Shown here: in pieces, positions 23,366 through 49,730 of the stretch
Layout of the letters: each line of letters begins with the position of its first letter
Position numbering within the stretch: the first letter of the stretch is position 1
IMG/VR virus record: IMGVR_UViG_3300031918_000041
Coordinates: 1 to 49,730 of that record
Reading direction: 5' to 3' (one strand)
DNA length: 49,730 nt
Source of the DNA: a virus
Position numbers and translations under genes: made by a program
The notes under the pieces: generated by a model
What the model was told of the DNA's origin: nothing
Seen by the model: only the letters and a program-made list of their open reading frames with translations
Database searches by the model: none

Positions 23366-23989
23366 TTATTGCTTTTTTGCAAGGATTTCTAATTGCCAGC
23401 ACCAATGAGGAAATTTTATGTTCCTCCCGGAGTTGGAAGCGATGATCGCGGCGTCAGGCAAATTGACCTTGGACACGAGATCGCAACCGCAGAACTGGCA
23501 CGAGTGAAGACCGGCTATCCTGCGGTCGTCCGGCACCGCTGAGCGGACGAGCTTACCCAAGGAACACGTAAAACACTCGTGCCCTTGGTCCACATTCGCG
23601 GCGCAATTATGACAAATGGTAGCGCGGCGTTGAGCTTCCTCTTTCGCCACGAACTCCCCCCCGCTCTTCAGCCATGTCCAAGCGGCGGTGCTGAATCCGA
23701 TAATCTTCTCCATGCTCATTACGTTACTGTCCTGCGGGGTAGGGACCCAGGGATCGTCCGGCCCTTCGGATATACATTCATTCGAGCCCAGCCGACCGCA
23801 GATCCACCGTTCGATTTCTTTCTGCACGTCGGCCTCGCTGCCGAACGGCAGGCTCTTGTGCTTACGGTGCGCGATCACTTGGCGCGTCAGTTCGCCTAGG
23901 GATCTAGCCGTGAGAATAAGGGCCGTCTCTTTTTGGAGGTACGAGAATCCGAAGGCAGGGGATTCGTTCTTAAATCTTAATAGAGCCAT
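23366..23989 (-). CDS. zinc-ribbon-type Cys-rich protein
   Basis: A 207-residue protein overlapping the end of the large terminase by 20 bp. The first half (about 1-110) is helical. The second has two Cys clusters, ICHNC and ECFTC (about 127-143), then HSCQFCGC (about 164), a probable double zinc-binding unit. Such proteins are seen beside terminase/portal genes in podoviruses, with unknown function. It could assist packaging. Confidence 0.7.
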   Translation of the reverse strand: MALLRFKNESPAFGFSYLQKETALILTARSLGELTRQVIAHRKHKSLPFGSEADVQKEIERWICGRLGSNECISEGPDDPWVPTPQDSNVMSMEKIIGFSTAAWTWLKSGGEFVAKEEAQRRATICHNCAANVDQGHECFTCSLGKLVRSAVPDDRRIAGLHSCQFCGCDLVSKVNLPDAAIIASNSGRNIKFPHWCWQLEILAKKQ

Positions 23990-25724
23990 GTGAAAATTCC
24001 TTGGTGTAGCGTTTCTGGTGAAATTTGGCGCGGGCGCGCATCTGATCCCAGTTGTTGAGTGCAGTGCCTGCGACTTTGCCGCCGAGCAGACCTTTGCGGA
24101 CCATCAGTTCGGCAAATTGGCAGAAGGCATCACCTCCGTCTGGGGACCGACCAATGCGCGCCTTCAAATCCTTCTTCGTTTCTGCGACCATGCGCTTACC
24201 GTCGCTTTCCTGAACCAATGTGTACCGCCTAGCGTCCAAGTCTACAGTAACTTTCGGGTCGATATTATCGAGGCCGCAGAGCATTCCATCGCGAGCCATA
24301 TATGAAGCTCGAAGCCACAGCTCCGTTACGAAGCGTTTAACCTGCTCGTTTGCGCCAAGGGGGTCATCCGTACGGAGGGGTCGATTCGTCGCTTCGCCGC
24401 CGTAGTAGATGCCCTCCACATGCCCGCGTCCCGGCAGCGGGGTCCACTCGTTGCGGAGGATGGCGTACACACCACGGGCATTGCCGGTGAGATCCTGAAT
24501 AAAGTTCTCGGGTTGAATGCCACGCTCTTTGCATAGACGAATACATTCCCGAGCGATCTGGAAATCCTTTTCTGGGAAACCGGGTCCGACCTTCGTTTGA
24601 ATGATGACGGATTCACGGGCGCAACAGCAGGGCTTCCCATCACGCAATGATCCGATTTCTCCGGTGATGAAGAAGCAGTCATCGCTATCGAAAGCAGGAT
24701 CGAGAGTAGCGCATGGGGTGGCGGCGAAGTCGAATGCCTCGGATCGGCGGGCTTTCTCAATGGTATTCGAGGGCCAGATTTTGCTAACCATTCCGTCAGG
24801 GGGAAAAAATCCTCGCCCGAACATCCAGCCACCGGGGGTGGATAGATCAAGGGTCTGCCAAAATTCCCACGTCATTATGTTTTTATTTACCGTCTTTCGC
24901 GCTTTTACGTTCGGGGACTGCTGGCCATCTAGATGGAGACAAACCCCGCGTTTAGTTTCCCAGAATAGCGTTGAGTCTTCGATAGACCCCCAACCCTCTT
25001 TAGGCTTACTCCACTCCCCGTACATTGATTGCCGCTCCACGGGGTTAGTAAGCAGAACCCCCTTGAAATCGCCGCCCGTCATGGCGTTTTCCATAGCGAG
25101 GTACAGAGAATCAGCAACGTCCTGGGCTTCATCGGCCACGATTCGACGGCGCGGTACGTGGTGGCCACGGATCTTGCCCGCATTTTTGTCCCCCTTATCC
25201 AAGGCGAGCCCCTGGATTAAAAATTTGGTATCGGCGGGACTCCCGTTTAGCCAGAATTTCATTTCATTCGTACTACTAACCGTCCGAAAGATAGAATTGA
25301 TGGCGTCCCGTGTACGGGAATTATTTATCGCTATCATAAGGTCGGACCAAAGACGTGTCTTTAGGGCGTCGAACTTGGTCGTCACAAGGGATGTCGCGGT
25401 AGCTTGAGGAGCAGATAGGTAGTCGAGCAGAACGAAATGCGCGGTGTTGTACGTCTTGCCCGCAGACGCATGGCCCATCACCGATATAATTGGGTAGGTA
25501 CACCACGCCCAACACATTAGTTCACTCCAGTCATTCCACTCAAACACGTCTTCTGGCCACATCAAACGAAAGGCGGATTTGAAGTGAAATTCGGTGGAGT
25601 GGTCAGTGGAATAGTTTACCGGATCCCGGTAACATGCCAATTCGATGTTGAGCAAATTAGCGCCTTCGGACTTCTTCCACATGCGGCCATACTTCTCGAT
25701 ATACTCTGAGTCTTTAACGGCCAC
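23970..25724 (-). CDS. terminase large subunit
   Basis: A 584-residue packaging motor with a GTG start. Walker A is GHASAGKT (84-91) and Walker B is VADEAQ (D198, E199). The nuclease domain shows TLDPAFDSDD (D342), FIQDLTGNARG (D411) and SPDGGDAF (D532), the three acidic positions of the RNase-H-like fold. The role is ATP-driven packaging and genome cutting. The start overlaps the stop of the HNH gene by 1 bp. No small subunit lies beside it. Confidence 0.92.
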   Translation of the reverse strand: MAVKDSEYIEKYGRMWKKSEGANLLNIELACYRDPVNYSTDHSTEFHFKSAFRLMWPEDVFEWNDWSELMCWAWCTYPIISVMGHASAGKTYNTAHFVLLDYLSAPQATATSLVTTKFDALKTRLWSDLMIAINNSRTRDAINSIFRTVSSTNEMKFWLNGSPADTKFLIQGLALDKGDKNAGKIRGHHVPRRRIVADEAQDVADSLYLAMENAMTGGDFKGVLLTNPVERQSMYGEWSKPKEGWGSIEDSTLFWETKRGVCLHLDGQQSPNVKARKTVNKNIMTWEFWQTLDLSTPGGWMFGRGFFPPDGMVSKIWPSNTIEKARRSEAFDFAATPCATLDPAFDSDDCFFITGEIGSLRDGKPCCCARESVIIQTKVGPGFPEKDFQIARECIRLCKERGIQPENFIQDLTGNARGVYAILRNEWTPLPGRGHVEGIYYGGEATNRPLRTDDPLGANEQVKRFVTELWLRASYMARDGMLCGLDNIDPKVTVDLDARRYTLVQESDGKRMVAETKKDLKARIGRSPDGGDAFCQFAELMVRKGLLGGKVAGTALNNWDQMRARAKFHQKRYTKEFSHGSIKI

Positions 25725-26258: not shown

Positions 26259-26430
26259 GGCCACTATGCAAGCGAAAAGACTTAGAGTTCGTTTAGACCC
26301 CGACGTAGGAAAAATCATACGGCAGAAGGCGAAAACCAACTTCCGCTCCATCTCGAAAGAAGCCTCGCAGCAGTTGCGCACGCATTTCGAGAACTTGAAA
26401 ACCCCGGTAAACTCCACATGCACATCTTAA
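26257..26430 (+). CDS. Arc-like ribbon-helix-helix DNA-binding protein
   Basis: A 57-residue protein (54 if the second ATG at 26266 is used). The pattern is an N-terminal basic strand (AKRLRVRLDPDV) then two helices (GKIIRQKAKTNFRSISKEAS and QQLRTHFENL), matching the Arc/MetJ type. It is the first gene of the plus-strand sugar cassette and overlaps the first glycosyltransferase start by 13 bp. It probably represses its own promoter through the inverted repeat at 26232-26256. With a start point near 26265 the mRNA could be nearly leaderless. Confidence 0.75.
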   Translation: MATMQAKRLRVRLDPDVGKIIRQKAKTNFRSISKEASQQLRTHFENLKTPVNSTCTS

Positions 26431-27464
26431 CGCTCACACAACCCCTCGCCGTCGGTGGCTCCATCGGCACGCTTACTCCCGGCGAGTGGCTCATGTCCGA
26501 CCAAAATTCCTTTGAGCTGGCCCTTCTCGCCGAGCGCGGGTCCGCATCCCTAGAACGATTCCCTGAAACCCCGAGTGCCTACAATAGCGATGAAATTGTT
26601 TTCATGCGCTCCGGCGCAATTGGGGATCTCTTATTCCTCACTCCTGCAATTCGCGCATACAAACTCGCGAATCCCCACAGAACGGTCTCCTTAAGTTGCC
26701 GAGTAGAACACCAGTCACTTTTTAAGGGCCTCGATCTTTTCGATGCCCTGTATCCCTACCCACTCCGTATTGAGGCTATCGCTGAGTGCCCGCTTATACG
26801 CTCCCTCGAAAACGTAATGGAACTCGCCCATGACGTTCACGCTACTGATGCCTTTGCAAACGCCCTCGGCGTACAAATATCCGACTACAAGCCCGTCTAC
26901 ATCGTTACCGACGAGGAGAAATCCCTCGCCAAGAACTGGATTCAGAGCAACCGCCCCCGCGTTGGTATCCAGCTCGCCGCGTCGGTCAAGAACCGCAACT
27001 ACCCCCTAGACCTATGGGCAAAAGTGATCTTCGGTCTGGACGACCGAGGCTGGGAAGTCTTCCTCTTCGGGCATCCAGGACAGATACCGGAGTTTGCGCC
27101 GAACATGAAGCGCACCTACGTCCACAACATGACCACGGAGAAGCTGAGCTTCCGGGAATCGGCGGCACTCCTCTCGCAGTGCAACGCATTTGTTGGCGTA
27201 GACTCCTCACTTCTTCACCTCTGCCATGCCCTCGACGTTCCCGCTATCGGTTTGTTCGGTGCGTTCAGTTGGGAGACCCGCACGAGTAAAGCCCCGCTCA
27301 CCCATGCCCTCACCGGGAATGGTGAGTGCAAGAACTGCCGATGGCACGCGAAGAACGGCCTCCATTTCCCCCCGATGCCCTGCCGCCAAGAGCAGTTCTG
27401 CTCCGTCCTCGCGTCGATTACGCCAGAACGAATCGTAGCCAAAGTAGACGCGCTGAAGCCATGA
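26418..27464 (+). CDS. glycosyltransferase family 9 (heptosyltransferase-type)
   Basis: A 348-residue protein. After a variable N-terminus (about 1-60) it has the GT9 nucleotide-sugar domain: MRSGAIGDLLFLTPAIRAYK (about 64-83), VGIQLAASVKNRNYP, a SFRESAALLSQCNAFVGVDS segment, and LCHALDVPAIGLFG (about 275-288). Family members transfer heptose or other sugars from ADP-linked donors to LPS core or glycans. Several Cys near the C-terminus (CKNC, CRQEQFC) could bind metal. It starts a four-enzyme cassette. Confidence 0.85.
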   Translation: MHILTLTQPLAVGGSIGTLTPGEWLMSDQNSFELALLAERGSASLERFPETPSAYNSDEIVFMRSGAIGDLLFLTPAIRAYKLANPHRTVSLSCRVEHQSLFKGLDLFDALYPYPLRIEAIAECPLIRSLENVMELAHDVHATDAFANALGVQISDYKPVYIVTDEEKSLAKNWIQSNRPRVGIQLAASVKNRNYPLDLWAKVIFGLDDRGWEVFLFGHPGQIPEFAPNMKRTYVHNMTTEKLSFRESAALLSQCNAFVGVDSSLLHLCHALDVPAIGLFGAFSWETRTSKAPLTHALTGNGECKNCRWHAKNGLHFPPMPCRQEQFCSVLASITPERIVAKVDALKP

Positions 27465-28147
27465 GAACCACTATCTCGATCGTCACGTACACCCAACTAG
27501 AGAAAGCCAAGCTCTGTATAAAATCCATACTGAACGGTGGCGGGCAATTCGACCTAATCCTAACCGCCAATGGTAATATCGAGGCAGCGGCGTATTTCCA
27601 GATCCTCGCGGATACCTACACCAATGTCCGCATGGTCGTAAACGAAACAAACGAAGGCTTCATCGAACCCAACAAACGGGCACTGGGGATGACCGATACC
27701 CCGCTGTTCGCTATGGTGAATGACGACTGTATCTTGCCACTGGGTTGGCTGGGCAAAATCAAACGGCAGTTCGCGATCAACCCAAAAGCGGCTGTTGTCG
27801 GGCCGAGAGGCTGTAGGCTGCGGGACAATTTCGTAGGTGGGCTGGAGGGAAGTGTGGTGGAGTACATCGAGGGCGTTTGTCTCGTGGTACGCACTGACCT
27901 TGTGAAGAAGCATGGGCTCTTCGACCCGAACTTAAAATGGGCTTACGGAGAAGATGCAGAATTGTGCATACGGATGCGTTCGTTAGGCTACACCATCCAT
28001 CTTGCCGATTTCCCGATCCACCACAAACCAGGAAGCACGAGTTACCTCGTTCCCGAGGTGAAGAAGTTCTTCGCCACGAACCACAATTATCTTCGCCAGA
28101 AGTGGAGTGATTACCTCAAAACTCATCGGTTCGCCCACGAGACATGA
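27461..28147 (+). CDS. glycosyltransferase family 2
   Basis: A 228-residue GT-A-fold enzyme; the ATG overlaps the GT9 stop (ATGA). It has the N-terminal TISIVTYTQLEKAKLCIKSI, NDDC (metal-binding DxD-type, about 89-92) and the acceptor-site region YGEDAELCIRMRSLG (about 174-188), like rhamnosyltransferase-type family 2 members. It probably adds a sugar to a host or phage glycan. Confidence 0.85.
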   Translation: MRTTISIVTYTQLEKAKLCIKSILNGGGQFDLILTANGNIEAAAYFQILADTYTNVRMVVNETNEGFIEPNKRALGMTDTPLFAMVNDDCILPLGWLGKIKRQFAINPKAAVVGPRGCRLRDNFVGGLEGSVVEYIEGVCLVVRTDLVKKHGLFDPNLKWAYGEDAELCIRMRSLGYTIHLADFPIHHKPGSTSYLVPEVKKFFATNHNYLRQKWSDYLKTHRFAHET

Positions 28148-29445
28148 AACTCACCCTCGTTACCACGGCTTGCTTTCGCCCCGAAGCCTGGGCACTCTGC
28201 GAAAAATACGTTTCCCAGCAAACTCGTCAGCCCGACCAGTGGCTATGCCTCGATGACGACGAGAACCAAACTGTCTGTACCAAAAATCAGGAATATCACT
28301 ACTGGCCAGAGTACAGAGGGAAAGGCAGTCTCGCCGCGAAGATCCGGCGCATGGTCAAGGATAATCTCGTAAAGGGCGATGCTGTAGTAATCCTCGAAAA
28401 TGACGATTATTATGCCCCTACTTATCTTGAGAACGTAGAGAAGTGGCTTGGCTCTGCCGATTTGGTCGGCGAACAAGATGCACTCTACTACAACGTCAAC
28501 ACGCGCACCTGGTTCTCGCATCGCAACTCCCAGCACTCCAGTTTTTGCTCAACGGCATTTAAAGTTTCCCTCTTCCCACAACTGCTGCGCGCCGCCGCCA
28601 CGGATTGCCCGTACATCGACATCCGGCTGTGGAGCTACGTCCAAGCCCCGTTCAAGAAGCTCGTCGTCCGACCGCAGGACTACCCACAATCCACTCGCCT
28701 CGTGGTGGGCATCAAGGGTATGCCGGGCAAGTTCGGCTACGGGGCAGGGCATATCATGCCCCCTGGACGCGGGGTACAACTTGACCCTCAACTGACGAAA
28801 CTCACCGCTATGCTCGGCCCGAATGCCGAGGCATATCGCATCTTCGGAGAACCTAAACCAATCGAAATACCTATGAGCACACAACCCGCACGTCTGTCTG
28901 AAACTGATGAAGTCCACGGCCCCAAGTGGGAGCAGTGGCTTACCCACCTAAAGGGGAAACCCGCTGTCGGTCTTGAGATCGGCACCTGCCGCGGCGAGTC
29001 CGCCGAGTCGATGTGTACGCGCATCTTCACCGATCCGAAGTCCCTCTACTACTGCGTGGACACGTTCGAAGGCTCGCCCGAGTACGACAAGGCGATCAAG
29101 TTCTCCGAGGTGGAAGCCGCCGCCCGCGAGCGCCTGAAGGGCTTCAAGCAAGTCGCCATCCTCAAGGGCACCTCGGCAGAAGTGCTGAAGAAGTTCAAAA
29201 CCCCACTGGATTCCGTCTATATCGACGGCGGGCATGATTCCCTCAACGTCATCCGAGATTCGGTCATGGCTTTCGACCTGCTGAAGGTAGGCGGGGTGAT
29301 GATCTGGGACGACTACGGCTGGACCCTCATGCCGAACGAGATTGATCGGCCAAAGTTCGCTATCGACTTCTTCCTCAAAACCTACGCCAAACACCTCAAC
29401 GTACTGCACAAAGCTTGGCAGGTGGCAGCGGTGAAAACGTCATGA
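28144..29445 (+). CDS. glycosyltransferase-methyltransferase fusion
   Basis: A 433-residue two-domain protein. Residues 1-240 look like a GT-A glycosyltransferase: LVTTACFRPEAWALCEKYVS, LDDDEN, and ENDDYY as metal-binding motif. Residues from about 259 form a class I SAM-dependent methyltransferase: GLEIGTCRGES (motif I, about 276), DSVYIDGGHDS and GGVMIWDDYGW, as in the Methyltransf_24 group. An internal Met244, preceded by an AT-rich CCT-ATG context, could also start a stand-alone methyltransferase. A possible role is adding and capping a methylated sugar. Confidence 0.8.
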   Translation: MKLTLVTTACFRPEAWALCEKYVSQQTRQPDQWLCLDDDENQTVCTKNQEYHYWPEYRGKGSLAAKIRRMVKDNLVKGDAVVILENDDYYAPTYLENVEKWLGSADLVGEQDALYYNVNTRTWFSHRNSQHSSFCSTAFKVSLFPQLLRAAATDCPYIDIRLWSYVQAPFKKLVVRPQDYPQSTRLVVGIKGMPGKFGYGAGHIMPPGRGVQLDPQLTKLTAMLGPNAEAYRIFGEPKPIEIPMSTQPARLSETDEVHGPKWEQWLTHLKGKPAVGLEIGTCRGESAESMCTRIFTDPKSLYYCVDTFEGSPEYDKAIKFSEVEAAARERLKGFKQVAILKGTSAEVLKKFKTPLDSVYIDGGHDSLNVIRDSVMAFDLLKVGGVMIWDDYGWTLMPNEIDRPKFAIDFFLKTYAKHLNVLHKAWQVAAVKTS

Positions 29446-29606
29446 AACCCCGTCCAACTAAAGAGGAGGTTGCCGAGGCGATTGCACGCCTAAAAGAATC
29501 CTTCCCCGAGGAGAAGCACGAAGGACATTGGGAATCCCGGGTATTTGAAGACGAGGTAGCTGCCATCCACACTTTAATCGCGCTAGCGGACTACTATGAA
29601 AACTGA
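29442..29606 (+). CDS. small acidic hypothetical protein
   Basis: A 54-residue ORF (MKPRPTKEEVAEAIARLKES...). It is charged, with two helices, and not recognised. It overlaps both neighbours (4 and 11 bp), so it is probably translated as part of the sugar cassette. Confidence 0.6.
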   Translation: MKPRPTKEEVAEAIARLKESFPEEKHEGHWESRVFEDEVAAIHTLIALADYYEN

Positions 29607-30345
29607 AGTTCACATTTTAAGCTGGTGTGAGGCAGAGATTCTTCCCTACACCATCAGGCATTATAAAACCTTCTGCTCGCGTATTGTTGTCCATGACGAC
29701 CAGAGTACCGACGGCTCCCGCGGGATCATCAAAGCGGCTGGCGTGGAGCTGGTCGATCGGCACACGGGCGGCGTCGTTGACGAGCACGAGTATTGCCGGG
29801 TGAAGGACGAGAGCTGGAAGGGCACCACGGCAGACTGGGTGATCGTCGTCGATGCTGACGAGCTGATCTACTTCCCGAAAGGGGCCGAGCAGACGATCGC
29901 GGAATACGAGCGTCAGAGCGTGAACGTGGTGAAGCCCTATGGGTTCGAGATGTTCACCGATACGTTCCCGACGACTGAGGGCCAGATCTACGATGAAGTG
30001 AAGAGGGGCGCGCCGGAGTATCAGTGGTACTCCAAACCGGCGATGTTCTCAGCGAAACGAGTGAAGGAGATCCACTACGGACTCGGCGCGCACGGATGCT
30101 CCGGGAAGCTCATTTCCGGGGCGGCGTTCTCGAACCCTACTGCTTACTCGATCCCGGAGACTTACCTGCTCCATTTCAAGCATCTCGGCGGCGTAGAGCG
30201 GCTGGCGAAGCGATACGACGAGGTGTACGCACGCCAGTTGCCGATCAACCACAAAATGGGCTGGGGGCATCAATGTGACGGGCATACCGCTAGTATGAAT
30301 AAACGGAACGGGATTCTGCCGAACTTACGGCAGGTTATTTTTTGA
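29596..30345 (+). CDS. glycosyltransferase family 2 (GT2_4-like)
   Basis: A 249-residue enzyme of the group with N-terminal HILSWCEAEILPYTIRHYKTF, then VVHDDQSTDGSRGI and IVVDADELIYF (DAD metal motif, about 87-95). The end carries HFKHLGGVERLAKR and a His-rich segment. It ends in an overlap with the convergent gene at 30335. The terminator sits inside its last codons. Confidence 0.85.
   Translation: MKTEVHILSWCEAEILPYTIRHYKTFCSRIVVHDDQSTDGSRGIIKAAGVELVDRHTGGVVDEHEYCRVKDESWKGTTADWVIVVDADELIYFPKGAEQTIAEYERQSVNVVKPYGFEMFTDTFPTTEGQIYDEVKRGAPEYQWYSKPAMFSAKRVKEIHYGLGAHGCSGKLISGAAFSNPTAYSIPETYLLHFKHLGGVERLAKRYDEVYARQLPINHKMGWGHQCDGHTASMNKRNGILPNLRQVIF
30316..30343 (+). terminator. intrinsic terminator of the sugar cassette
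   Basis: CTGCCG (30316-30321) and CGGCAG (30328-30333) form a 6-bp stem with a 6-nt loop, followed by GTTATTTTTT. It lies within the 3' end of the last glycosyltransferase gene and reaches into the end of the convergent structural gene. Confidence 0.8.
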
Positions 30346-43712: not shown

Positions 43713-44018
43713 TTACACTGGGTCGGATTCAAATGGATCACCGAGCACCGCAACAACTCGATCCTCCAGAGTGAAATACTGAACGTCCTCGCTGCCGACC
43801 TTGACCTTCATCACGGCATTCGAATTGAGGAGAACACGGTCGCCCTTTTTTATCTGCTCGCACTTCGGCCCGACGGCGAGGACGTTGGCTTCCAAGAATG
43901 GGGGGAGTTGGGTGCTGCCGGGGAGGACGATCTTACCGGGGGCGTAAGTATCTTCCAAAGAAACGTCGAGCCAGACCGAGCTGGCGACGGGGGTGTAGAC
44001 TTTTTCGCGGAGTTTCAT
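43713..44018 (-). CDS. GroES-like co-chaperonin
   Basis: A 101-residue protein of the Cpn10 fold. It has the beta-rich core and GDRVLLNSNAVMKVK segment (about 60-74), the VLAVGP motif (about 46-51) preceding it, and a mobile-loop-like stretch at residues about 22-35. The expected size of 90-100 residues fits. Phage co-chaperonins (as T4 gp31) partner with host GroEL to fold the capsid. It heads the tail operon rather than lying beside the capsid gene. Confidence 0.78.
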   Translation of the reverse strand: MKLREKVYTPVASSVWLDVSLEDTYAPGKIVLPGSTQLPPFLEANVLAVGPKCEQIKKGDRVLLNSNAVMKVKVGSEDVQYFTLEDRVVAVLGDPFESDPV

Positions 44019-44852: not shown

Positions 44853-45455
44853 CTAACTAATCGCAATCGGTGCAGAAGGGGTGACGTTCTTCTCTGCTTT
44901 CGTTGCAGCCGGAGTGGCGAACACAAACATATTAACATTCGTAGAGCTGCCGGATTGCTGTTCAACTTTGGCATCCATACCTCTGCAAGTACGTGATACG
45001 CCAATGAGATTGCGAACTGCACCAGAGGCCGCTTGCGCGATTTTGGCGCGAGATTCCATCGTTCTCAGCTTCTTTTCGATGGGTAAACTCTCAAATTCTG
45101 GCGAGCCTGGAGCTAAGCTTCCCCTAAGAAGATTAAGTGAGCCTAATGTTAGCTCTTCAGACTCAACAGCAATCCTTTGGGAGACTTCGGCTAAATCTTT
45201 CTCGACGATAGCAGTCACAGTAGCTTCGGCTTTCTCCCATTTCTTGCCACGAATCTTTGCCCATCCTGCATTCGTGATAAGCATCTTGGTGGCCTTGTAA
45301 TTACATCCAAGCTGATCCGATATCTCTTTAGGACCTAGATTACCGACCAAATAGAGTGTACGAATCTTAATCTTCTGATCCACACTAAGGTATCCTTGCC
45401 CGCTCATATATTGCCTGGGACGAAGAACTGCCGGACTTTCAACGGTTGCTACCAT
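44853..45455 (-). CDS. helix-turn-helix protein, candidate terminase small subunit
   Basis: A 200-residue protein from the ATG at 45455 (an upstream TTG at 45491 is also open but crosses the parS-like site). The N-terminal third has a HTH segment (VDQKIKIRTLYLVGNLGPKEISDQLGCNYKAT). The middle is helical (about 80-150), and the end is Ala/Thr-rich. The HTH plus oligomerising helical body layout is that of small terminases, but it lies far from the large subunit, so a regulator is equally possible. It is more AT-rich than its neighbours. Confidence 0.55.
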   Translation of the reverse strand: MVATVESPAVLRPRQYMSGQGYLSVDQKIKIRTLYLVGNLGPKEISDQLGCNYKATKMLITNAGWAKIRGKKWEKAEATVTAIVEKDLAEVSQRIAVESEELTLGSLNLLRGSLAPGSPEFESLPIEKKLRTMESRAKIAQAASGAVRNLIGVSRTCRGMDAKVEQQSGSSTNVNMFVFATPAATKAEKNVTPSAPIAIS

Positions 45456-45467
45456 ACCGATACCAAT

Positions 45468-45483
45468 GGTTCCACGTGGAACA
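45468..45483. promoter_or_regulatory. parS-like centromere site
   Basis: The minus strand reads TGTTCCACGTGGAACC, with a perfect 14-bp palindrome at 45469-45482. This fits the bacterial chromosomal parS consensus (GTTnCACGTGnAAC) bound by ParB. It lies 13 bp before the ATG of the HTH gene, in the divergent region between early and late modules. No parA or parB gene was found in the window. Confidence 0.75.
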
Positions 45484-45566
45484 ATTGTCAATTCCAGTCA
45501 TTTTCCGCGCAAATCAGAAACTAATTTCACCTCTAACTCCTTAGTTCTCAGGCTACTTACAACTAA

Positions 45567-45581
45567 ATAGGAAATTTCTAT
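45567..45581. promoter_or_regulatory. near-palindrome in the early divergent region
   Basis: A GAAATTTC core (perfect 8-bp palindrome, 45571-45578), flanked by ATAG and TAT, lies 35 bp before the first early ATG. A possible operator; no clear -35/-10 pair was found. Confidence 0.3.
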
Positions 45582-45615
45582 TGATTGTTTTAGAGGGAAA
45601 GACGATATTAGCGGC

Positions 45616-46907: not shown

Positions 46908-47531
46908 ATGAAAACCCCCATCTCAACTCTCGTTAAACTCGGAGCCTGTCACGACGCACTTGCCTGGTGCCGCACAAACTCCATGCCCGATCTAGAAACC
47001 GCGTGGCTTAAATGTCCCCGTGGCGAATGGATGGAATGGCTCGCGGCCAAACGTAATGTGGACCCAGCGAAACTCGCCGACTACGAGGCCAAGCGTGCCC
47101 CGCTGGACGCCGACTACGAGGCCAAGCGTGCCCCGCTGTACGCCAACTACGAGGCCGAGTGTGACGCGCTGTACGCCAACTACGAGGCCGAGTGTGACGC
47201 GCTGTACGCCGACTACGAGGCCAAGCGTGCCCCGCTGGACGCCGACTGGCAGGCCAAGTGTGCCCCGCTGTACGCCAACTACGAGGCCGAGTGTGACGCG
47301 CTGTACGCCGACTACGAGGCCAAGCGTGCCCCGCTGGACGCCGACTACGAGGCCAAGTGTGCCCCGCTGTACGCCGACTACGAGGCCAAGCGTGACGCGC
47401 TGGACGCCGACTACGTGGCCAAGCGTGACGCGCTGTACGCCGACTGGCAGGCCAAGCGTGCCCCGCTGGACGCCGACTGGCGGGCCAAGCGTGCCTGTCT
47501 GATGCGCGAAATATTTCCTGCACTGCCCTAA
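46908..47531 (+). CDS. 11-residue-repeat protein with conserved N-terminal domain
   Basis: A 207-residue protein using the ATG at 46908. Residues 1-56 have LVKLGACHDALAWC and AWLKCPRGEWMEWLAAK, a small domain common at the start of phage and bacterial proteins (A-W-x-x-C-x-R-G-x-W). Residues 57-199 are thirteen perfect-length 11-residue repeats, each variable at about six positions (Asp/Asn; Tyr-Glu or Trp-Gln/Arg; Lys/Glu; Arg/Cys; Ala-Pro or Asp-Ala; Asp/Tyr). The short end is REIFPALP. An amphipathic helical rod is likely. The function is unknown. Confidence 0.85.
   Translation: MKTPISTLVKLGACHDALAWCRTNSMPDLETAWLKCPRGEWMEWLAAKRNVDPAKLADYEAKRAPLDADYEAKRAPLYANYEAECDALYANYEAECDALYADYEAKRAPLDADWQAKCAPLYANYEAECDALYADYEAKRAPLDADYEAKCAPLYADYEAKRDALDADYVAKRDALYADWQAKRAPLDADWRAKRACLMREIFPALP
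47076..47504 (+). repeat. 33-bp tandem repeat array, 13 units
   Basis: Thirteen in-frame 33-bp units (residues 57-199) with identical codons at every invariant position. All differences among units are nonsynonymous. The units are free of stop codons in other frames, including two on the opposite strand. Confidence 0.95.
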
Positions 47532-49202: not shown

Positions 49203-49730
49203 AACATCCAACGCCCTCTTCCCCGGACGCCCCAACTACACCGGCCCCACTTCCGGCTGGTTCGGTCTACTCCATCACTCCGAGCTGTTCGAAACCTCGC
49301 ACGACGTGAACGAGCGTGTTGCCTACGTGAAGGCGAACAAGCCTAAACGCGAGGTGGCGCTCCGCCTGCACAACATGGCCTACCTCGGCGCTATCGCCTC
49401 AACGTGCGACAAGCGTGCCCCGCTGTACGCCGACTACAAGGCCAAGCGTGCCCCGCTGGACGCCGACTGGCAGGCCAAGTGTGACGCGCTGTACGCCAAC
49501 TGGCAGGCCAAGTGTGACGCGCTGTACGCCAACTGGCAGGCCAAGTGTGACGCGCTGTACGCCGACTACGAGGCCAAGCGTGCCCCGCTGTACGCCGACT
49601 GGCGGGCCAAGCGTGCCCCGCTGGACGCCGACTACGAGGCCAAGCGTGCCCCGCTGGACGCCGACTACGAGGCCAAGCGTGCCCCGCTGGACGCCGACTA
49701 CGAGGCCAAGTGTGCCCCGCTGGACGCCGA
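49192..49730 (+). CDS. 11-residue-repeat protein, N-terminal part (gene continues at the window start)
   Basis: Open to the right edge. Residues 1-73 form a unique domain (MTTETSNALFPGRPNYTGPT, then HDVNERVAYVKANKPKREVAL, MAYLGAIASTC). From residue 74 the 11-residue repeats begin. Collapsing the 148-bp terminal overlap joins the frame to 1-257, giving a 215-residue protein. Its N-terminal domain differs from that of the paralogue at 46908, so the repeat module is shared between two different heads. Confidence 0.85.
   Translation, partial: MTTETSNALFPGRPNYTGPTSGWFGLLHHSELFETSHDVNERVAYVKANKPKREVALRLHNMAYLGAIASTCDKRAPLYADYKAKRAPLDADWQAKCDALYANWQAKCDALYANWQAKCDALYADYEAKRAPLYADWRAKRAPLDADYEAKRAPLDADYEAKRAPLDADYEAKCAPLDA
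49411..49730 (+). repeat. 33-bp tandem repeat array (second array, proximal part)
   Basis: Units of the same kind as 47076-47504, including two identical consecutive ANWQAKCDALY units, continuing into 1-176 after the overlap is collapsed (ten full units plus a partial first one). Confidence 0.9.
49583..49730. repeat. right copy of 148-bp terminal direct repeat
   Basis: Matches bases 1-148 except at 49604 (G here, A at 22), which changes an Arg codon (CGG) to Gln (CAG) in the repeat protein. Confidence 0.9.

Follow-up and report, generated by a model that had tools for sequence, protein, structure and literature searches.

A Pseudomonas-type parS sequence beside a putative terminase gene in a phage without detected ParA or ParB, with similar sites in further phages

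We have found that a phage genome in which neither ParA nor ParB was detected carries, between its early and late genes, a 16-mer letter-identical to parS1 and parS4 of Pseudomonas aeruginosa (PMC4368675 Table 1; PMC5098823). In our judgement the balance is about even that this 16-mer is a host ParB loading site marking the phage DNA and maybe dampening the terminase-side promoter, a reading drawn from sequence comparison. Far better support than for this one site, from which the analysis started, exists for the recurrence of host-type parS sites in ParB-less phages, which was followed in a survey of viral contigs and in a group of Pseudomonas phages with known hosts.

Results

A parS-type site in front of a putative terminase gene

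The window (the whole stretch of 49,730 nucleotides that was analysed, from an IMG/VR phage record), read directly, has TGTTCCACGTGGAACC on the minus strand and GGTTCCACGTGGAACA on the plus strand at 45468-45483, and the core of this 16-mer is the perfect 14-bp palindrome GTTCCACGTGGAAC (45469-45482). The first-pass annotation of this DNA had given the sequence, coordinates and palindrome exactly, and its proposed fit to the chromosomal parS consensus (TGTTYCACGTGRAACA / TGTTCCACGTGGAACM) is borne out and goes beyond mere likeness, the 16-mer being that of a proven P. aeruginosa ParB site. The elements of the region are as follows.

45468 to 45483, minus strand: parS-type 16-mer TGTTCCACGTGGAACC, with the letters of P. 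aeruginosa parS1/parS4 and proposed as a loading site for host ParB
45464 to 45487, no strand assigned: interrupted palindrome CAATGGTTCCACGTGGAACAATTG of 24 bp that holds the 16-mer, 22 of 24 positions symmetric
44853 to 45455, minus strand: putative terminase small subunit, start codon ATG at 45455, weak match to PHROG 1206 (E 6.5e-4)
45560 to 45611, no strand assigned: conserved noncoding stretch lying between early genes and late genes; the relative G002 has it at about 91% identity
45841 to 46269, plus strand: first gene of some size across the divergent region, of unknown function (PHROG 24784)

The site is the sole match in the window to TGTTCCACGTGGAACA at up to three mismatches, a loose cut-off at which shuffled windows average 0.19 matches. 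With a first-order Markov model, the exact 16-mer is expected 1.2e-5 times per window on one strand, the 14-bp core 2e-4 times, and sites at no more than one mismatch from TGTTYCACGTGRAACA 0.0017 times. The 14-bp palindrome alone is unremarkable, because the window has another perfect one (885-898) and about three are expected. The rarity of the 16-mer that had been claimed for a genome of this size therefore holds for the window, with an expectation of about 1e-5, but many exact copies in other viruses turn out to encode the peptide G-S-T-W-N.

No match to ParB_N or HTH_ParB was found in the window, and the families listed for 56 ORFs include none of ParA or ParB type, in agreement with the earlier statement that neither protein is encoded; the ParA and ParB genes of a complete ParABS system are thus not present among these ORFs. 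The segregation of a circular form had also been suggested, and we found no evidence for a plasmid state. Prediction of the host through the polymerase, helicase and primase was abandoned, the matches being too distant.

A gap of 12 nt separates the end of the site from the downstream ATG of the minus-strand gene 44853-45455, which is probably the terminase small subunit (TerS). This gene had been described simply as an HTH gene, and the structural model, of low confidence overall, does show at the N-terminus a helix-turn-helix predicted with confidence, after which come long helices; what changes is the probable identity of the gene. The N-terminus MxATVESPAV is common to this protein and that of the relative, and fixes the start codon at 45455. 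The region had been called the only divergent one in the genome, which does not hold, as the ORF calls have a second minus-to-plus junction near 26.4 kb. The large terminase (TerL) is probably encoded at 23970-25724, where Walker-type motifs (GHASAGKT and IVADEAQD) were read by eye and no named PHROGs matched. Slightly downstream of the small subunit in the late operon there is a GroES-like Cpn10 gene (43713-44018, minus), and glycosyltransferase/heptosyltransferase and methyltransferase-like genes (26418-30345, plus) are inserted among the late genes, in a block whose nucleotide identity to the relative reaches about 90%. Repeats of about 33-bp period are found at 1-190, 47075-47495 and 49402-49730, i.e., at both contig ends and in an internal gene. 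The ends of G002 have them too, and it is probable that the two contigs break within this repeat.

Palindrome, hairpin and coding motif

The 16-mer is nested in a longer palindrome with a single mismatched pair and lies close to the start codon. These features would also suit control of the terminase gene by a different dimeric protein, such as a repressor of phage or host origin that reads this palindrome, or by a hairpin in the leader transcript. Alone, the 24 nt fold as RNA at -7.6 kcal/mol, better than shuffles (z -2.38). However, the complete 61-nt terminase leader folds no better than its shuffles (z -0.55), no comparable hairpin is found in the leader of G002, no further copy of the 24-bp palindrome exists in the window, and the core letters are those of parS and not of an arbitrary palindrome, so that we give this alternative a small probability. 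No sigma-70-like promoter was detected at the site at the scan threshold, and neither RNA families nor tRNAs were found in the window.

A second alternative is that the site is a remnant of coding sequence, the codons GGT-TCC-ACG-TGG-AAC for G-S-T-W-N being common in tail- or adhesin-like phage ORFs. The plus-strand frame from 45468 does read T-N-G-S-T-W-N-N, resembling many of the viral copies. Against this, no plus-strand ORF of at least 60 aa covers the site, for which reason the explanation does not apply to the window copy; the frame lies on the strand opposite the conserved terminase start and meets a stop codon after a short distance, and the sequence of G002 at this place is unrelated. 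As far as sequence can, these observations refute a coding motif at this position, which keeps hardly any probability.

Conservation in relatives

Only two IMG/VR records have the terminases of this phage. One is a contig that carries the site and is 99.97-100% identical to the window over the parts compared, essentially the same virus, and therefore it gives no independent support. Searches with the window DNA and TerL against phage isolates gave no match, and no relative of this phage was found in GTDB genomes. The sole informative relative is G002 (50.4 kb), which is syntenic with the window nearly throughout (TerL 83% and TerS 62% identical). Conservation in close relatives had been put forward as a check of the parS reading, and it is also a mark of chromosomal parS; in this one relative the site is absent from the whole genome, even at up to three mismatches. 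In its terminase leader the TTGAC-to-ATG spacing is kept, and 2 of the 14 core bases are shared in a hand alignment.

At a distance of 77 bp from the site there is a block of 53 bp in which the window and G002 are about 91% identical. As the block is kept and the site is not, the conserved regulatory element of this region is probably the block, and the site is lineage-specific. Within the block (45560-45611) an arrangement resembling a promoter, TTGATT-17-GATATT, was seen by eye and falls below the threshold of the promoter scan; it is a probable promoter or regulatory element, separate from the parS-like site.

These data bear directly on whether the site could be a chance or neutral palindrome in the fast-evolving TerS leader of one lineage, with no ParB role. 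Its absence from G002 next to a conserved block and its single copy in the window count against function and would be expected by chance, and many windows and many known motifs were in effect searched, so that rare matches get reported. On the other hand, the window expectations are between 1e-5 and 2e-3, such sites are in strong excess over two control palindromes in viral contigs, and a similar patchiness exists in Otagovirus-type phages, where chance is excluded. Altogether we consider chance the main alternative, though less likely than a ParB role. The absence from G002 refutes little, because the presence of sites is patchy within that phage group.

Recurrence in viral contigs

We scanned 2.9 million viral contigs with GTTCCACGTGGAAC and with the exact 16-mer. 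The core was found at at least 120 loci and the exact 16-mer also at at least 120, whereas complete scans with two control palindromes of matched composition gave 42 and 81 matches. Fifteen of the 120 listed core loci were also among the listed 16-mer matches, and if both scans ran in the same order, the core may, by rough extrapolation, have about a thousand occurrences. Raw counts of the 16-mer overstate parS, because about 40% of the exact copies (48/122 among the matches listed) have the GSTWN reading, either inside a long ORF or in the same frame, and we have rejected such counts as proof of parS; L020, L116, L118, L173 and L180 are among the loci where the 16-mer codes for G-S-T-W-N in long ORFs. 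This coding motif is a trap for motif counts of parS in phages. The excess over the control palindromes persists after these copies are removed.

Other properties of the viral sites were compared among the matches listed. T..A flanks were present at 60 of 121 core sites, and 34 of 121 core sites were intergenic vs. 18 of 123 control sites (p 0.012). No ParB was found in 49 of 50 and in 23 of 23 tested viral records with sites. Some sites were clustered in groups of two to four that mixed the GTTCC and GTTTC versions, as would be expected from ParB binding, and unlike what one arbitrary palindrome would give.

Three related contigs have parS-type sites, L204 (6278, 7334, 8201), L269 (2267, 3264) and L246 (1454), of both the GTTTCACGTGAAAC and GTTCCACGTGGAAC versions, within repeated intergenic elements that also contain AT-rich inverted repeats and GGCGCC. 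Terminase or portal genes, present in two of the three contigs, mark this family as phage. Among the control loci, which amount to 1.12 Mb together, exact TGTTTCACGTGAAACA was found in three, L294:9311, L328:37 and L354:763, far above chance, and these records had no ParB match.

Sites near terminase genes

Of 54 records with intergenic viral sites, 6 had such a site no more than 150 bp from a large-terminase gene, where 2-4% would be expected (p 0.001-0.03). The result is exploratory and post hoc, as the pattern was noticed before testing. Unrelated contigs with intergenic sites beside large-terminase genes are L109, L066, L181/L241, L047, L077 and L250. Positions near such genes include L109:311 and 335, L066:1722 and 1973, L181:3449, L241:2547, L053:7113 and L059:5027-5233, and these loci have one to three parS-type sites each, upstream or nearby. 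Contig L066 has two sites upstream of its terL; its relative, phage DSL-LC04, has none. Adjacency to a terminase was rejected as a defining context, the enrichment being modest and post hoc; the terminase-side position of the window site matches the pattern.

The same enrichment, and the fact that the window site adjoins the small terminase gene, would fit a role in the initiation of packaging, as a portion of a pac/cos site that TerS recognises. Such a site would be expected to be conserved in close relatives, yet it is lost in G002 at the terminase identities given above, and with an enrichment of this kind we regard a packaging role as very improbable.

Otagovirus-type Pseudomonas phages

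Contig L074 led us to a group of Pseudomonas phages of about 97-107 kb, several of them classified as Otagovirus. We scanned 11 genomes of this type (1.09 Mb) with TGTTYCACGTGRAACM at no more than one mismatch and found sites in eight, with 1-6 in each and 30 in total, vs. about 0.04 expected; KoPa-4 (vB_PpuM-KoPa-4) has three, around 61-66.5 kb. The carriers are as follows.

Phages: ventosus, UAVern, KoPa-4, Amme-3, vB_PpS_SYP, REC, Ep020, Pyxpy01
Accessions: PP179310, MG018930, MZ605293, PP496414, PP496413, OQ183418, MZ826353, OQ603351 (loci L362-L366, L371-L373)

VCM, Psxphi15 and Kremar, of the same type, have no sites, and neither do thirteen other phages of Pseudomonas, enterobacteria and Bacillus (1.33 Mb). 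Most of the sites form clusters that span about 6-8 kb, and of those mapped 10 of 12 are intergenic, six of these lying 0-6 bp past a stop codon. ParB_N was not found in the five phages of the group tested with it, nor HTH_ParB in any of the eight carriers. The positions of the sites differ among relatives, and the comparison shows that gain, loss and relocation of sites are normal in a group in which chance is excluded.

Like the window phage, these phages have host-type parS sites, mostly intergenic and patchy, with no ParB_N or HTH_ParB match. They differ in usually having several sites and known Pseudomonas hosts, and they are unrelated to the window phage.

Discussion

In P. aeruginosa, parS1 and parS4 are occupied in vivo by ParB, as seen by ChIP-seq, and one site of this class is enough for chromosome segregation (PMC5098823). 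The intergenic parS4 has exactly the letters of the window site, and genes adjoining parS3 and parS4 are repressed by native ParB (PMC5521831). The window site therefore resembles parS1/parS4 in its letters and parS4 also in being intergenic (PMC4368675, PMC5098823, PMC5521831). In contrast to them, it is a single candidate on a phage without ParA or ParB, away from a bacterial origin.

A close parallel is the mobile element SGI1, which carries parS-like DNA only and uses the ParABS system of the IncC plasmid for its stability and for displacing that plasmid (PMC10954446). Both carry parS-like DNA and have no ParAB of their own, and the window phage may likewise rely on the ParAB of another replicon (PMC10954446); SGI1 mimics a plasmid parS, has two copies and its ParB binding has been demonstrated, whereas the window has a single candidate of chromosomal type. 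Measured against SGI1, the window has no ParAB and an exact Pseudomonas-type parS, a candidate match to the parS of its host. Phage-plasmids and extrachromosomal mycobacteriophages are also phage DNA with a centromere-like site, but they encode their own partition proteins (PMC7157519), of which none was detected in the window. We found no published description of host-type parS in ParB-less phages, in a search that barely covered subscription papers and preprints.

We propose that the host ParB binds the 16-mer, closes into a CTP-dependent clamp and spreads over the adjacent phage DNA. We infer a host ParB of matching specificity, its binding at this site and all the downstream effects. Loaded 12 nt upstream of the TerS gene, ParB would dampen or time the packaging or late-side expression, which is the simplest local effect because ParB represses the genes beside parS4 (PMC5521831). 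A wider benefit is possible, the phage genome being marked as host origin DNA or competing with it by titration or positioning of ParB.

The recruitment of host ParB that the first-pass annotation had proposed is thus strengthened by the proven function of the 16-mer elsewhere, by the lack of ParAB and by the recurrence in phages, and weakened in what it said of circular-form segregation and conservation. Judged from the window alone, a host-ParB function, for which we see about even prospects, and chance, which we take to be the less probable, are not far apart.

Tentatively, the whole of the data could reflect a widespread and undescribed strategy by which ParB-less phages carry copies of the host parS in clusters and recruit or titrate host ParB, perhaps also SMC. 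Its effects would be the silencing or timing of phage genes, the positioning of replicating DNA, or the disturbance of the host chromosome, and the window would be an example with just one site, placed at a terminase promoter. So far, the spreading of ParB, the loading of SMC and gene silencing around parS have been studied as functions of the host chromosome. If phages copy parS, ParB would be a host factor exploited by phages, with effects on infection that can be tested, and the Otagovirus-type phages are a ready system for this, with culturable hosts, known parS and site-less relatives as natural controls.
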